Source: Verrucomicrobiota bacterium (lineage in GTDB: Bacteria; Verrucomicrobiota; Verrucomicrobiia; Limisphaerales; J093). From it: 64,000 nt of DNA. This document shows positions 9,966 to 39,416 of this stretch, one piece after another. The position numbers and the translations under genes are program-made. The stretch spans positions 1 through 64,000 of the forward strand of contig JAKLFY010000021.1 of assembly GCA_022710935.1 (NCBI GenBank), given 5' to 3'. Each line of letters starts with the position of its first letter. Within the stretch, counting starts at the first letter, position 1. The notes beneath the pieces are model-generated. The model saw only the letters and a program-made list of their open reading frames with translations. It was not told the DNA's origin and made no database searches.

Positions 9966-11423
9966 TCACCGTCCGGATGCCGGCCCTCCGCGCCCGGGTT
10001 CGCGCACGCCGGCTCCGAGGCGTTGGGCGAGCGCGTCGCCCAAATCCCCGCGCGCCCTCTCAGCCAGCGCTTCGAGGCGCCGGACCACCTCCGGATGTTC
10101 CGAAGCGACGTCACGCGTCTCGCCGATGTCTGTGTCGAGGTCGTAGAGCTCGGGGCGCTCGATCTTGTGCTGCACGTACTTTGCGGGCTGGCCGTCCCGT
10201 CCGGGCGGCTGCCCAGCCAGGGTGCGATACGTGTGCGGCAGGAGCAGTTTCCAGGGACCGCTCGAGACCGCTTGGAGCTGGCCGTCCGCGAAGTAGAAGA
10301 AGAAGGCCTCGTGCGGACTTTGCGCGTTGGGTTGGCTGGACAACAGCGGCCAGATGTCGAGGCCGTCAATCCGGTGCGCAGGCAAATCGGCGCCGGTCAA
10401 CCGCGCGATTGTGGGGAAGAGATCGATTGTCATGGCCGGTTCGCCGCAGAGCGCGCCCGCCGGGACGTGACCGGGCCAGCGGGCGATGAAGGGCACGCGG
10501 ACTCCGCCTTCCCAGCAGGTTCCCTTGCCTTCGCGGAGCGGCCCGGCGGATCCGGCGTGGTTGCCGTACGAGAGCCAGGGCCCGTTGTCGGACGTGAAGA
10601 TGACCAGCGTGCGCTGGTCCAGCCCGTGGCGGTTCAAAGCCCCAAGGATCCGCCCGACAGACCAGTCGATCTCGGCGATTACGTCACCGTAGAGACCGGC
10701 GGTCGTCTTGCCTTCGCGCTTCTCGCTGACGAACAGCGGGACATGTGGCATGCTGTGCGCCAGGTAGAGCAGAAAGGGGCGGTCCTTGCTTCGTTCGATG
10801 AACCGCACGGCGCGTTCCGTGTACCGCGTGGTGAGCTGCGTCTGGTCGGGCATGATTTCCTTGACCTGATCGCCCTCGATCAGCGGCAGAGGCGGGTAGG
10901 TTCCCGGCTTGGCCTCCGGGTGGTTGGGCCACATGTCGTTCGAATACGGCAGGCCCATGTACTCATCGAAGCCGTGGTGGATCGGGAGGAACTGGCGGTG
11001 ATCACCCAGGTGCCACTTGCCGAAGATGGCGGTCGCATACCCCCGCGGCTTGACCAATTCGCCCAGCGTGACCTCCCGCGGGTGAATGCCGATCGGGGAA
11101 CCGGGCCCGAGCGCGCCGGCGATGCCAATCCGATTCGGATAGCACCCGGTCAACAAGCCCGCCCTCGAAGCGGAGCAGACGGCCTGCGCGACATAAAAGC
11201 GCGTGAATCGAATGCCCTCGGATGCCAGACGGTCAATGTGCGGCGTGGCATATCCCCGGGCGCCGAAAACCCCCACGTCGCCGTACCCCATGTCGTCGCA
11301 AAAGATGATGACAATGTTGGGGGCTGAGGGAGGCGCTGCGGCCTCGACGGCGCAGAGGGCAAGGGTCGAGAGGATCGCAAGCCCGAAGGCTCGACGCCAA
11401 AACGAACATCGGGTGTTGGGCAT
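9966..11423 (-). CDS. Exported sulfatase (formylglycine-dependent)
   Basis: A 485-residue type I sulfatase with a signal peptide ([16 protein letters not shown]). Metal-binding Asp43-Asp44 lie in [15 protein letters not shown]. The sulfatase signature [11 protein letters not shown] has Cys83 as the residue that would be converted to formylglycine by FGE/anSME. Later motifs GKWHLG, HSMPHVP and TSDNGPW fit the family. It probably hydrolyses sulfate esters of polysaccharides in the periplasm or outside the cell, and such enzymes are typically abundant in Verrucomicrobiota and Planctomycetota. The substrate cannot be told. No maturase is seen nearby. It reads toward the RodZ-like gene but a REP-containing gap separates them. 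Confidence 0.93.
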
Positions 11424-11477
11424 AAGGACCTGGTAAACAGACGTCCCGAGCCGGTGGTTTGTTCAATTATTATTATT

Positions 11478-11505
11478 GGGGTCACATCTTCATTTTTGAC
11501 ATTTG
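11478..11505 (+). repeat. 28-bp repeat, copy 1 (outer end of Uma2 cassette)
   Basis: A 28-base unit beginning GGGGTCACATCTTC and ending TGACATTTG is identical to 12409-12436 and to the reverse complement of 12522-12549. GC-rich CGCCGCCGCC sequence follows in copies 1 and 2. Copy 1 and copy 3 form perfect inverted ends around the Uma2 gene. Confidence 0.85.
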
Positions 11506-11628
11506 TGCTGACTGCGCCGGCCCGGGGCCGCACTGCCCGGTCTCGATGACTCTGGTGCGGGACCGGTCGTATCGACCGCGCCGCCGCCGCCGCCGACCCA
11601 GCCCGCCGGATCACCCCGCCAGTTCCCC

Positions 11629-11646
11629 CCACATGTGCACATGTGG
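11629..11646. promoter_or_regulatory. 18-bp perfect palindrome upstream of the Uma2 gene
   Basis: CCACATGTGCACATGTGG is a perfect palindrome about 87 bases upstream of the Uma2 start and inside the repeat-bounded cassette. It could be an operator or recombination site. No clear promoter boxes are visible around it. Confidence 0.4.
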
Positions 11647-11732
11647 ACCATGAAGAGGTGACTTCATGGATGGCGAAAGCCAAAAAGCCGCCCTTGCCAG
11701 TTGCTGCATGTCAGGACTAGGTTTGCCTCGTT

Positions 11733-12395
11733 ATGACCGTCGTCAGGGCCAAGCCCAGTGTGTCCGGAAGCCGTGCCAACCAGCCGTTGCCGCTGGAAAA
11801 CGGCGAATGTCTGCACTCGCGGGAGTTCCTGCGGCGCTACAACCGGATGCCTCAGGTCAAGAAGGCCGAGTTGATTGAAGGAATCGTCTATATGGGTTCA
11901 CCCGTCAGCATCGGCCACGGCAAACCGGACGCCATCATTCAGGCGTGGTTGGTCACCTACGCCAGCCGGCATCCTGGGACTGAAGCATTGGCCAACACCA
12001 CCGTGATTCTTGACCCCGAGAACACGGTGCAGCCCGACGCTCTTCTCCGCCGTCTGCCCGAACACGGCGGAGCAAGCGGCGTGAACGAAGACGGCTATCT
12101 CACAGGTCCACCTGAACTCATCGTGGAAATCGCGGTAAGCTCCGCCTCGATTGACCTGCGGGACAAGCGGCGTGCCTATTGCCGCAACAGAGTGCCCGAA
12201 TACTTGGTTTGGGTCGTGGCTGAACAGCGGGTCGAGTGGTTTGTCCTCGAAAACGACGAATACATGCCGCAACAACCGGATGCCCAGGGCCTGCTGCGCA
12301 GCCGGGTGTTCCCTGATCTCCGGCTTCCGGTTGCAGGCTTGTCGGCTTGCGACGCGGCGACGGTGTTGGCAGCTCTGGCGCAGCCCAAAGGCTGA
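11733..12395 (+). CDS. Uma2 family (DUF820) putative endonuclease
   Basis: A 220-residue protein of the Uma2 family, which has a PD-(D/E)XK restriction-endonuclease-like fold. Recognisable elements are LIEGIVYMGSPVSIGHG at about 47-63, VQPDALLRR with Asp102, PELIVEIAVSSASIDLRDKR with Glu132 and a following Lys, and VPEYLVWVV near 154-162. The biological role of this family is poorly known; copies are numerous in cyanobacteria and Planctomycetota/Verrucomicrobiota. Here the gene stands alone and is enclosed by 28-bp inverted repeats, which suggests it moves or is moved as a cassette. The ATG at 11733 keeps the whole conserved region; an RBS is not obvious. Confidence 0.88.
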   Translation: MTVVRAKPSVSGSRANQPLPLENGECLHSREFLRRYNRMPQVKKAELIEGIVYMGSPVSIGHGKPDAIIQAWLVTYASRHPGTEALANTTVILDPENTVQPDALLRRLPEHGGASGVNEDGYLTGPPELIVEIAVSSASIDLRDKRRAYCRNRVPEYLVWVVAEQRVEWFVLENDEYMPQQPDAQGLLRSRVFPDLRLPVAGLSACDAATVLAALAQPKG

Positions 12396-12408
12396 CCCGG
12401 TGTGCTCT

Positions 12409-12549
12409 GGGGTCACATCTTCATTTTTGACATTTGTCTGCTGACCGCGCCGCCGCCGCCGACCCCGCCCGCCAGATCCGCCCGCCAGATCCGCCCGCCA
12501 GATCCGCCCGCCAGATCCGCGCAAATGTCAAAAATGAAGATGTGACCCC
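12409..12549. repeat. Fold-back element: 28-bp inverted repeats around four 13-bp tandem units
   Basis: The 28-bp repeat at 12409-12436 and its exact inverse at 12522-12549 enclose 85 bases of GC-rich sequence. This contains four tandem copies of CGCCCGCCAGATC (12466-12517). The structure can form a long hairpin and resembles a small MITE or a REP doublet. It lies just behind the Uma2 stop and before the next gene. Confidence 0.8.
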
Positions 12550-12597
12550 ATGGCGCTCGAGCTTGTCGGGCGTCAAAACCAGGATTAGGGTCGCGGC

Positions 12598-14109
12598 GTG
12601 ACGTCTTCCAAGCCGCGCTGGCTCGCTGCGCCCTCGATCGGACGGCGCGGGAGGCTGGCTGTTGGCGCGTGCCTGACGCTGGTGGCGTTGGCCCGCGCCG
12701 CCGCGGGAGGGCCTGAACTCGATTATTTGTTTCCCGCCGGTGGACGGCAGGGGGCGCGATTCGAGGTGATTGGCGGGGGCAAACTCGATCCGTGGCCGGT
12801 CGGGGTGTGGACTGATGACGCCGGCATCCGGTTTGTTCCCGGTCTCACCAATGGCGTGTTTCAGGTCGCGATCGATCCGGGTGTGGCCCCGGGCGGGCAT
12901 CTGGTCCGGGTTTACACGTCCGAAGGCGCATCGAAGCCGGCGTTGTTTGTGGTGGGCGCCGATCCGGAGGTCACCCGTTTCCCGGAGTCGCCCGCCAACC
13001 GGATGCACGGCGCGGCGCCACCGGCGGCGATCCCGGTCACACTCAACGGCCAGCTCAGATCGGCGGATGCGCCGCTGCTCTTTCCGATCGAGGCCGGGGC
13101 GGATCGGGTCGTGCGAGCGCGATTCATGGCCAGCGCGCTCGATTCGCCGGCGCAGGCAAGTCTCGCTCTTTTGAAGGACGGCACGCCGCTTGTGGCCACG
13201 CTCGACCCGGCGAGACGCGACTTTGAGCTTCGTTGTCCGATCGTGGCCGGCGGCCCTCTTTCGCTCGAAGTCACCGCACTGGCCGGCAGTTACCTGGGCG
13301 ATGCCGCGGTCTTTCGCGTCCAGGTGACGGATGATCCGCTGGTGCCGATTCCCCGATCGCGCGCGACGAGCGCCAGCTCGGAGGGGGTCACGGCCTTCCG
13401 TCCGATGACAAGTGCGCGGACGCTTGCGATTCCGGGCCAGACCCGCGGGGTGATTTCGCCCGAAGGCCGGGTGATCCACTACAGCTTCAGCGCCCATCAG
13501 AACGAACAGTTCCGTTTTCTGGCGAAAGCCGGCAGCATCGGCTCCCCGCTGGCGCCCGTTGTGCGGGTCCTGGACCTGGATCGCACGGTGCTGGCCGAGT
13601 CGCTTCCCGGAACCGATGCGGAGATGGTGTGGATTGCGCCCAGCGACGGTGAACATCTCCTGGCCGTGACGGACGCGGACGGTCGTGGCGGGACGATCTA
13701 TGCCTTCCAGCTCGAAGTGGAGGAGCCTCAAGCCCACTTCAGCGCCGTTCTCGAGGACCACGCCTTCCAGCTCAGGCCGGGCGGGTCATGCGTATGCGAC
13801 GTGCGGGTTTTGCGCCCTGTGTCTTCAGACACTGTCGTGCGCGTCTCGGCGATCGATCTGCCGGACGGCGTTACGGCCGGCTCCGTGCACGGCGCCGCGG
13901 GGCTCGATCGGGTTCGTCTGGTCCTGTCGGCCGGTGCCGCGGCCAAGCCGTCCAGCGGCCCGTTCCGGATCATGGTGATGACGACTGGCGAGACGCCGCC
14001 TCGGGTCGAGTTCGCCCGGTTCGCCCTCGAACCGCGGCACACGGATGGACGCACGCTTGCAGTCCGGGACTGCGATCAGCCTTGGCTGACCGTTCGGCTC
14101 GGGGAGTGA
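12598..14109 (+). CDS. Secreted protein with pre-peptidase C-terminal-like beta domains
   Basis: A 503-residue exported protein starting at a GTG, with a signal region (RLAVGACLTLVALARAAAGG). After it comes ELDYLFPAGGRQGARFEVIGGGKLDPWPV, a segment widely seen at the start of planctomycete/verrucomicrobial secreted proteins carrying PPC domains. Two beta-sandwich stretches follow, one around VIHYSFSAHQNEQFRFLAKA to MVWIAPSDGEHLLAVTDADG (a PPC-like pattern). No catalytic domain is visible. Related proteins normally sit beside DUF1549/DUF1553 cytochrome-like genes, which are absent here. The GTG start follows directly on a repeat element, and an alternative start inside the signal is possible. 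It is convergent with hypB. Confidence 0.75.
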   Translation: MTSSKPRWLAAPSIGRRGRLAVGACLTLVALARAAAGGPELDYLFPAGGRQGARFEVIGGGKLDPWPVGVWTDDAGIRFVPGLTNGVFQVAIDPGVAPGGHLVRVYTSEGASKPALFVVGADPEVTRFPESPANRMHGAAPPAAIPVTLNGQLRSADAPLLFPIEAGADRVVRARFMASALDSPAQASLALLKDGTPLVATLDPARRDFELRCPIVAGGPLSLEVTALAGSYLGDAAVFRVQVTDDPLVPIPRSRATSASSEGVTAFRPMTSARTLAIPGQTRGVISPEGRVIHYSFSAHQNEQFRFLAKAGSIGSPLAPVVRVLDLDRTVLAESLPGTDAEMVWIAPSDGEHLLAVTDADGRGGTIYAFQLEVEEPQAHFSAVLEDHAFQLRPGGSCVCDVRVLRPVSSDTVVRVSAIDLPDGVTAGSVHGAAGLDRVRLVLSAGAAAKPSSGPFRIMVMTTGETPPRVEFARFALEPRHTDGRTLAVRDCDQPWLTVRLGE

Positions 14110-37175: not shown

Positions 37176-39416
37176 CTAGAACTCGACAGCCAACGCGCGC
37201 GGGCTCGACGTGTTGCTGAACCGGATCCAGAGGAGGCGCTGGTCCGGATCCCAAGACCAGTCATCCAACTGTTGCCCGGCGAGGGTCACGGTTTTCGGCG
37301 CGTTGGCGGCGTGCAGCAACACGATCGCCGGCGTGCCGGCCACGCCTTCCACATGCCAGCACCTCGGGTCCGCGACAGAGGCGGCGGAGGCGGCGGGGAG
37401 CGTCTTGCAGGCGGATGCCAGGACCGCCGGAGCGGGCGGAGTGACCTTGTCCAGATCGAGGAGGAACCAGCGGCTGCCCGGATCGAGCGTGACCTCGAGG
37501 CGCACTTTCAAGTCGGGATCGAACAGGTTCACAAAACGACCGCGCAAGGTCTTGGGCGCACCGCCGACCGACTCGTCGAGGCCCGCCGCGACGACGTAGG
37601 GGCCGCGTTCGAGAACCAGGTAGTTCGTTTCGCGCCATTGCCGTGGCGACTTCGAGGTGGCGGCTTTGACGCTTGCGATGACGTTCGAGTCGCCTTCGGC
37701 GCTGGCCGCGGCGCGGGCTGGATTCTCGCGCCGCCACAGGACGGCGCCTTTGCCCACGGCGCGGGGGGCGTCTTCCGCCGGCGCCGGCGACTCGACGCCT
37801 CCAGCCAGTCCGAGTTGTTCGAAGAGGTGAATCCGAGGAGTCGCGTACTGTCGCCCTTCGGTATTCCACCACTCGCGCACCCGGTTGTATGGATCGGAAT
37901 CATCGTCCCAGACCACGAGCACGCCGCCGGCGCGGACCCAATCCGCCAGGGGTCGATGCGCTTCTTCGGACATGGGTTTCTGTCCGTGATAACTCAGGAG
38001 GAGCACGGCGAAGTTCTTGAGGGAATCGGGCGATGTGATGTTCTCGATCACAACGGGGGCGACGGGCATTCCGCGCTTCAACAGAGGCAGGGCGAGTCCA
38101 TAGACGTGGCTCAGGTGCGGATCGCTCGGGGCGGGGTCGCCGCGCTGGAACATGAGCGAATCGCTGACAAGGATGCCGAGCCCCTCGGTGCCGCAGTCCC
38201 AGCGGACGCTGGTTTGCCGGAGATCGTTCAAGGCGTTGAAGACCGTTTGAAGCTCGGCGGCATAGGCTGGCGGGATCGGTTCGCGCTCCCGCGGATTGCC
38301 CTTCTTGGGGTAGCGCCCGCCAAAGACGCGCTCGGGCCAGGGCGCAACCTCGTACTGCCAGACATCGGGCTGCAGCAACGAGGCCACCAGGGTGGATTCC
38401 CAGTTCGTGCGATAGTCCTCCCAATCGTGATCGGGATTGTCCTCGATCGGGTCGTTTAAATACCAGACGGTCCGGCCCGTCGAGCGGACGAGGTCCTGCA
38501 TCGAGCCGTATTCGAGGAAGGCGGTCTCGAAGGTGCGTTCCTTGAGCTTGCCGCGAAAGAGGTTCGGGGTGCGCGACGTGCCGGTCCAGACCTGGGCGAT
38601 GTAGCCGTCGCACCCGTTGAGCTGGCCCAGACTCGACTCCGGGCTCACGATGCGCCAGTGGGCGTAGTTGAGCAGGCTGTGGGACGGGACGTAGCAGCGG
38701 ACTCGCTTGCCTGTTCGGCGGTTCCAATCCTGGACGTAGTCGAAGACCTGCTGGAGCGCCCGGCGATAAAGAAAGTACTTGAGCTTCGACGCGCGCCATT
38801 GGGCGTCGGCGCTGCTGTGCGGCGGTTGCCAATCTTCGAGGTAATGGGCGCGCCACGCGCGCTTGAAGCCCTCCGAGTAACCGCCACGGACCCAGAACTC
38901 GGGCTCTTCGAGGTGGATGGCGTCGACGCCGGCATCGAGGGCGCGCTGGACGCCGACGCACAGGAACCGCCCGTAGTTCTCGCCGGGGCACATGTAGTAG
39001 ACGTCGCCGCCGTGGCTGATCTTCCGGCCCTCTCGGTCGGTCTGGGCCTCGTCCTCGTGGTTGACGCCGTCGAAGCGCCCGTACAGATAGTCCTGGTAGT
39101 TGCCCCACGACACGCCGGTCATGACGTGAATCCGGTAGCCGCGATCCCGCCACGTCCGGATGCGTCCACCGAGGCCCGGATCGATGCCGTACACGATCGC
39201 CACGTCCGATCTCAGGTTGCCGTTCGGGCTCCAGCCCTGACCGGTCTGGAAGCAGGTCCGCTCGAGTTGCGCGAGCGGATCCTCGGGGAAGGCGGGCGGC
39301 AGGTCGGCGGCGAGGAGGCCGCACGTCAGGAGGGCGCCAGCCAGGCCGGACATTGCACAAAAACGCATCTGTTCTGATCTCGATGCTTGCGGGACTGGCG
39401 TCGCGGGGCGGGTCAT
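37176..39416 (-). CDS. Large exported glycoside-hydrolase-like protein, unknown family
   Basis: A 746-residue protein with a signal (MRFCAMSGLAGALLTCGLLAA). The N-terminal 350 residues look like a TIM barrel: VAIVYGIDPGLGGRIRTWRD, MTGVSWGNYQDYLYGRFDG, DAGVDAIHLEEPEFWVRGGYSE with paired Glu, CYVPSHSLLNYAHWR and GCDGYIAQVWTGTS. A glutamine-amidotransferase-like flavodoxin fold (LLSYHGQKP, then GGVLVVWDDDSDPYN) and a C-terminal beta domain follow, the plan of beta-galactosidase/GH42-like enzymes. The start at 39416 overlaps the DUF1080 stop (ATGA), so the two are translationally coupled; an internal ATG at 39368 sits right at the signal. Substrate unknown. Confidence 0.82.
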   Translation of the reverse strand: MTRPATPVPQASRSEQMRFCAMSGLAGALLTCGLLAADLPPAFPEDPLAQLERTCFQTGQGWSPNGNLRSDVAIVYGIDPGLGGRIRTWRDRGYRIHVMTGVSWGNYQDYLYGRFDGVNHEDEAQTDREGRKISHGGDVYYMCPGENYGRFLCVGVQRALDAGVDAIHLEEPEFWVRGGYSEGFKRAWRAHYLEDWQPPHSSADAQWRASKLKYFLYRRALQQVFDYVQDWNRRTGKRVRCYVPSHSLLNYAHWRIVSPESSLGQLNGCDGYIAQVWTGTSRTPNLFRGKLKERTFETAFLEYGSMQDLVRSTGRTVWYLNDPIEDNPDHDWEDYRTNWESTLVASLLQPDVWQYEVAPWPERVFGGRYPKKGNPREREPIPPAYAAELQTVFNALNDLRQTSVRWDCGTEGLGILVSDSLMFQRGDPAPSDPHLSHVYGLALPLLKRGMPVAPVVIENITSPDSLKNFAVLLLSYHGQKPMSEEAHRPLADWVRAGGVLVVWDDDSDPYNRVREWWNTEGRQYATPRIHLFEQLGLAGGVESPAPAEDAPRAVGKGAVLWRRENPARAAASAEGDSNVIASVKAATSKSPRQWRETNYLVLERGPYVVAAGLDESVGGAPKTLRGRFVNLFDPDLKVRLEVTLDPGSRWFLLDLDKVTPPAPAVLASACKTLPAASAASVADPRCWHVEGVAGTPAIVLLHAANAPKTVTLAGQQLDDWSWDPDQRLLWIRFSNTSSPRALAVEF

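Follow-up and report, generated by a model that had tools for sequence, protein, structure and literature searches.

A Uma2 gene between probable remnants of two TIRYT miniature elements in a Verrucomicrobia-group genome

The window analysed here, a stretch of 64,000 nucleotides from a Verrucomicrobia-group bacterium, contains a Uma2-family gene that is bracketed by perfect inverted repeats. The explanation of this arrangement that we favour, with a probability of roughly three in four, is that the bracket is made up of two miniature remnants of a TIRYT element lying around an acquired Uma2 gene, and that the difference observed at this site in a sister species is due to recombination or deletion at directly oriented TIRs. 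An earlier note on this DNA had described the gene as a single cassette bounded by repeats and had suggested that it is mobilised in trans. Recombination or deletion at the TIRs is the better supported of these two explanations, and in place of the proposed Uma2 cassette a transposon family can now be identified.

The repeats themselves are exactly as they had been described. Perfect copies of the 28-mer are present at 11478-11505 (+), 12409-12436 (+) and 12522-12549 (-), against an expectation of 0 (100 shuffles), and the gene that they surround is intact. The match between the outer arms continues to 29 bp, with positions 11477 and 12550 included, and that between the two direct copies to 30 bp. 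The coordinates of the different features of this locus are given in Table 1. On its strand, the decayed repeat at 11638-11666 is second in the window only to the perfect copy, and the next match reaches 17/29. The region 11476-11626 corresponds to the decayed left end of the intact element TIRYT-A (described below), with which it aligns at 74.5% over 153 bp in the copy from the sister species (E 1e-25). This region represents the 3' coding end of the transposase gene on the minus strand, of which about 150 bp are retained within miniature element 1, and the transposase C-terminus ending in SKMKM is still readable there by tblastn. In view of the decayed inner TIR and the transposase remnant, the segment 11477-11666 is a decayed miniature element of its own, and Uma2 is located between two directly oriented miniature-element remnants. 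The perfect inverted arms are then the left end of element 1 and the right end of element 2, and the bracket that they form is a by-product rather than the boundary of one cassette. The target duplications that a transposed unit had been expected to leave are not visible at 11476/12551; a T precedes 42 of the 50 TIR ends inspected in both TIR families.

Table 1. Features of the Uma2 locus and its surroundings (positions in the window)
Feature	Position	Strand	Remarks
Left flanking gene, sulfatase	9966..11423	-	about 92-93% identical and syntenic in the sister species
TIR copy 1, TGGGGTCACATCTTCATTTTTGACATTTG, at the outer left of miniature element 1	11477..11505	+	same position as the left TIR in the sister species
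Miniature element 1, decayed, 190 bp	11477..11666	+	left TIR intact, right TIR decayed
Decayed inner (right) TIR of miniature element 1	11638..11666	-	21/29
Segment homologous to the Uma2 locus of G013, 81% at the nucleotide level	11684..12400	+	spans the space between both miniature elements
Uma2-family PD-(D/E)XK putative nuclease gene, 220 aa	11733..12395	+	PF05685 match
TIR copy 2, at the left of miniature element 2	12408..12436	+	
Miniature element 2, 143 bp	12408..12550	+	TIRs perfect at both ends; same orientation as element 1
Tandem array with a 13-bp unit (CCGCCCGCCAGAT x 4.3), within miniature element 2	12465..12520	+	
TIR copy 3, at the right of miniature element 2	12522..12550	-	
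Right flanking gene, for a 503-aa protein assigned to no Pfam family	12598..14109	+	90% identical and syntenic in the sister species

The repeat is also found elsewhere in the genome to which the window belongs (G000), which is a metagenome assembly of 7.5 Mb in 259 contigs with a contamination estimate of 4.3%. A 22-bp core of the repeat occurs in this genome at 23 places when up to 2 mismatches are allowed, and a looser pattern gives a count of about 24 elements for this TIR family, dispersed through the genome and for the most part miniature derivatives. Many family members are inverted pairs of 90-200 bp, viz. miniature elements, and others are single ends. One element of the family, TIRYT-A, is intact (1,115 bp, C179:38104-39218; TIRs at 38106 (+) and 39191 (-)), and it encloses the gene for an IS200-type Y1/HUH transposase (359-aa ORF; PF01797, E 7e-14), in whose sequence an HFH motif and the tyrosine motif YVHLNPVR can be read. 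The match of this protein to the NCBIfam model REP_Tyr_transpos (E 5e-18) is, at 65.5 bits, below the cut-off of 80. The final codons of the gene (...QLSKMKM-stop) fall inside the TIR and, as the transposase gene ends within the repeat, the repeat represents the end of the element. All three copies in the window start with GGGGTCAC, which fits the TIR consensus GGGGWSAS, and the miniature elements in the genome match both ends of TIRYT-A, so that several short segments with both ends of the autonomous element are present in it. Judged by its sequence, the 28-mer of the window is the TIR of a TIRYT element with miniature derivatives and a putative tyrosine transposase that is REP-associated-like. 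The suspected tie between the repeat and an IS200-type transposase has thus been borne out by the intact copy with the same ends on C179. However, the genome search that had been proposed for the 28-mer gave no support for an association with Uma2, as the elements of this TIR family are found genome-wide and mostly without Uma2, and the repeat is therefore not specific for this gene. In the earlier note, a 28-mer found mostly away from Uma2 together with a lack of empty sites was to count against the proposal; this is largely the situation found, and what is supported of the proposal is the link to the transposase rather than the cassette, mobilisation in trans being unlikely.

Other elements of this kind are also present in the genome. 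The repeats of a second family (GGGGTCGCATCT...) surround a Y1 gene of their own at C180:37751-38856; the TIR family of this second TIRYT element (GGGGTCGCATCTAAATAGTTGACA) is found at some 25 places in the genome, and the element is syntenic in the sister species. A third repeat flanks a Y1 gene at C194:138716. TIRYT-A is intact in the sister species as well, where its 1,115 bp align exactly from TIR to TIR and its immediate flanks differ. The right flank of the sister's TIRYT-A is found in G000 at a distance of about 13 kb from the copy there, on one contig with it, so that a rearrangement is as likely as transposition between the sister genomes.

The sister species (G012; MAG Verrucomicrobia bacterium ADurb.Bin006) is also represented by a metagenome assembly and is about 91-92% identical in this region. 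The sulfatase gene and the gene for the 503-aa protein are adjacent in it, as in the window, and the spacer between them holds a single element of 127 bp, whose outer TIRs are the same, but lacks Uma2, for which no match was found in this genome at E <= 1e-20. Miniature element 2 of the window aligns end to end with this 127-bp element at the same site; the 13-bp array is missing from the sister's element. The comparison with relatives that had been suggested for finding an empty site has thus revealed an occupied one, and this argues against the segment having arrived whole, as a single unit. Such a unit could also have been present in the ancestor, and a deletion between the directly oriented TIRs, which are 931 bp apart, could then have removed it in G012. 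An outgroup with the same synteny was not found, the sulfatase gene adjoining the 503-aa gene only in G012, and Uma2 may have been gained in this species or lost in its sister. At the locus L077, a nearby sulfatase is 23% identical and was not accepted as orthologous. In either case, we infer that the difference between the sister species arose at the TIRs. According to the explanation that we favour, the TIRYT element would spread in this genome chiefly in the form of miniature elements with internal deletions, two of which would have come to sit in direct orientation in the spacer that follows the sulfatase gene. Uma2, acquired horizontally, would have been placed between them, and recombination or deletion at the direct TIR copies at 11477 and 12408 (30 bp) would explain why one of the sister species has the gene and a further element that the other lacks.

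The Uma2 gene itself shows a nearly full-length match to PF05685 (98.4 bits against a cut-off of 27, E 4e-28, profile positions 3-172 of 172), and its homologues have a patchy distribution, being found in 24 of the 320 genomes of the order. The identity of Uma2 with its homologues in G013, G088, G262, G244 and G283 is 74-79%, whereas that of RimO is 60-64%, or 60-63% over its main aligned part. A higher conservation of Uma2 than of RimO across families suggests horizontal transfer of this Uma2 subfamily, and from these comparisons the Uma2 gene at this locus looks to have been acquired horizontally. A plasmid collection contained only two distant cyanobacterial matches to Uma2, at about 50% identity. 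According to Makarova et al. (PMC2701414), Uma2 is a likely solo toxin, which in most cases is found in cassettes of paralogues. No such repeat is present near the remaining two Uma2 genes of G000, and enclosure by such a TIR pair is seen at none of the 29 other Uma2 homologue loci in the order. The sole perfect 22-bp pair among these 29 loci is that at L110 (GGGGTCAG... repeats; G003:C38 near 833220-833855), and as its GGGG ends face Uma2, the gene is placed between two elements and not inside one. The TIR repeat is thus not a general vehicle of Uma2.

If the segment 11477-12550 were nevertheless a non-autonomous mobile insertion cassette, with Uma2 as a passenger moved in trans by the TIRYT transposase of C179, then its outer TIRs, perfect over 29 bp, its size of 1.07 kb, near that of the 1.11-kb autonomous element, and the presence in the genome of an intact transposase with matching ends would be accounted for. 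A comparable segment is C224:14600-15929, lying within C224:14594-15935, where family-B TIRs and 89 bp of a transposase start enclose a gene with an N_methyl domain (pilin-like). This unit is the best candidate in G000 for a passenger-carrying element; in the comparison for its empty site, the right flank was found in G012 and the left flank was not. However, we regard the movement of the Uma2 segment as a cassette as unlikely, as the segment is present in a single copy only, on its left it comprises a decayed element that has an inner TIR of its own, the sister site is not empty but holds a miniature element with the same outer ends, and Uma2 homologues elsewhere lack enclosing TIRs. Further, in G001, TIR pairs of another family enclose DUF1559-like and methyltransferase-like genes (named by sequence resemblance), and G003 retains the DUF1559-like gene in place with a TIR content differing from that of G001. 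As this gene is kept in both genomes despite the difference in TIRs, enclosure by TIRs alone does not imply movement. It is more improbable still that the segment descends from a full TIRYT element in which an inserted Uma2 gene replaced most of the transposase gene, the 143-bp part being formed later; the 150 bp of transposase 3' end next to the outer TIR on the left side and the similar total length are in accordance with such an origin, but to the right of Uma2 no transposase remnant is found beyond the miniature element, the decayed right TIR sits to the left of Uma2, and element 2 has a left TIR of its own.

Differences between the two sister species that coincide with TIRs are also seen elsewhere. 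One example is a PIN-domain gene located at C1:55141-56053 between two miniature elements in inverted orientation. The PIN gene and one element are absent in G012, and the break lies within the end of the neighbouring gene, truncating it at a TIR, which suggests that this was a loss in G012. In a survey of chosen regions of these two multi-contig metagenome assemblies, which is partial and subject to selection, G000/G012 alignments stop at or near a TIR in C101 and C194 versus C135, C190 versus C65, C196 versus C178, C224 versus C197, C206 versus C127 and C224 versus C166. Among the regions compared, TIRs thus often coincide with breakpoints between these genomes. At C135:2500-8500 of G012, a miniature element joins flanks that are found on separate G000 contigs (C194 and C101); this junction is a rearrangement or a large indel with its breakpoint at the miniature element. 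On C132 of G012, a stretch between two copies of one miniature element is partly duplicated in comparison with the single-element site on C217 of G000. Gene-containing element pairs within 1 kb were seen twice, against 0.07 expected for 24 elements under a rough uniform random model, so that the pairing is more than coincidental and might stem from a process by which genes come to lie between elements. Least probable of all is that two elements inserted by chance on either side of a pre-existing Uma2 gene which the sister lost by an unrelated deletion: elements of another family in G001 do also flank DUF1559-like and methyltransferase-like genes, but the sister difference ends at TIRs at both the Uma2 and PIN loci, and the number of close pairs exceeds that expected.

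At the Uma2 and PIN loci alike, the sister species differ at TIRs by a nuclease gene together with one miniature element. A speculative extension, which we consider unlikely, is that TIRYT elements in this lineage repeatedly gain and lose single nuclease-type genes (Uma2, PIN) between neighbouring miniature copies, and may serve as a gene-swapping site for solo toxin-like genes, either by transposase-driven recombination or by recombination through TIR homology. For this Verrucomicrobia-group lineage, the present analysis provides an annotated TIRYT system comprising an intact transposase, its TIR, miniature copies and two TIR families in two sister species.

Of the known systems, the TIRYT genes are described as being flanked by long TIRs with the consensus GGGGWSAS, which form moderately abundant families and often occur as dimers (Di Nocera et al. 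2013, PMC3733652; Quentin et al. 2018, PMC6006769). The elements described here resemble TIRYT/TIRtron (PMC3733652) in having a Y1/HUH gene with long TIRs, in the overlap of the TIR with the 3' end of the gene, and in the occurrence of family members singly or in dimers, and they differ from it in their miniature derivatives, in which as much as 150 bp of the transposase end is retained. TIRYT/TIRtron elements probably correspond to the TnpA-REP subclass 2.1 of Quentin et al. 2018 (PMC6006769). A C-terminal HTH is expected for this subclass; Pfam detected none in the TIRYT-A transposase even at E 5, its C-terminus (LKLEELAELSGG...AIRRVRQQI) being DnaA_C-like by eye only. Dispersed short inverted doublets together with a full-length Y1 transposase as their presumed mover are shared with REPINs and RAYT (Bertels and Rainey 2011, PMC3116915), in contrast to which the repeat here is a TIR and not a palindromic REP hairpin, and only about 24 elements are present. 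Lastly, the locus is similar to mobile insertion cassettes such as MIC231 of Bacillus cereus (PMC3913671), where a passenger gene without a transposase lies between IS inverted repeats. In a cassette of this kind the passenger lies between the inverted repeats of one element and is transposed with them, whereas here the arms are derived from two separate remnants, the segment is present in a single copy with no transposed copy or empty site found, and the corresponding site in the sister species holds a miniature element.
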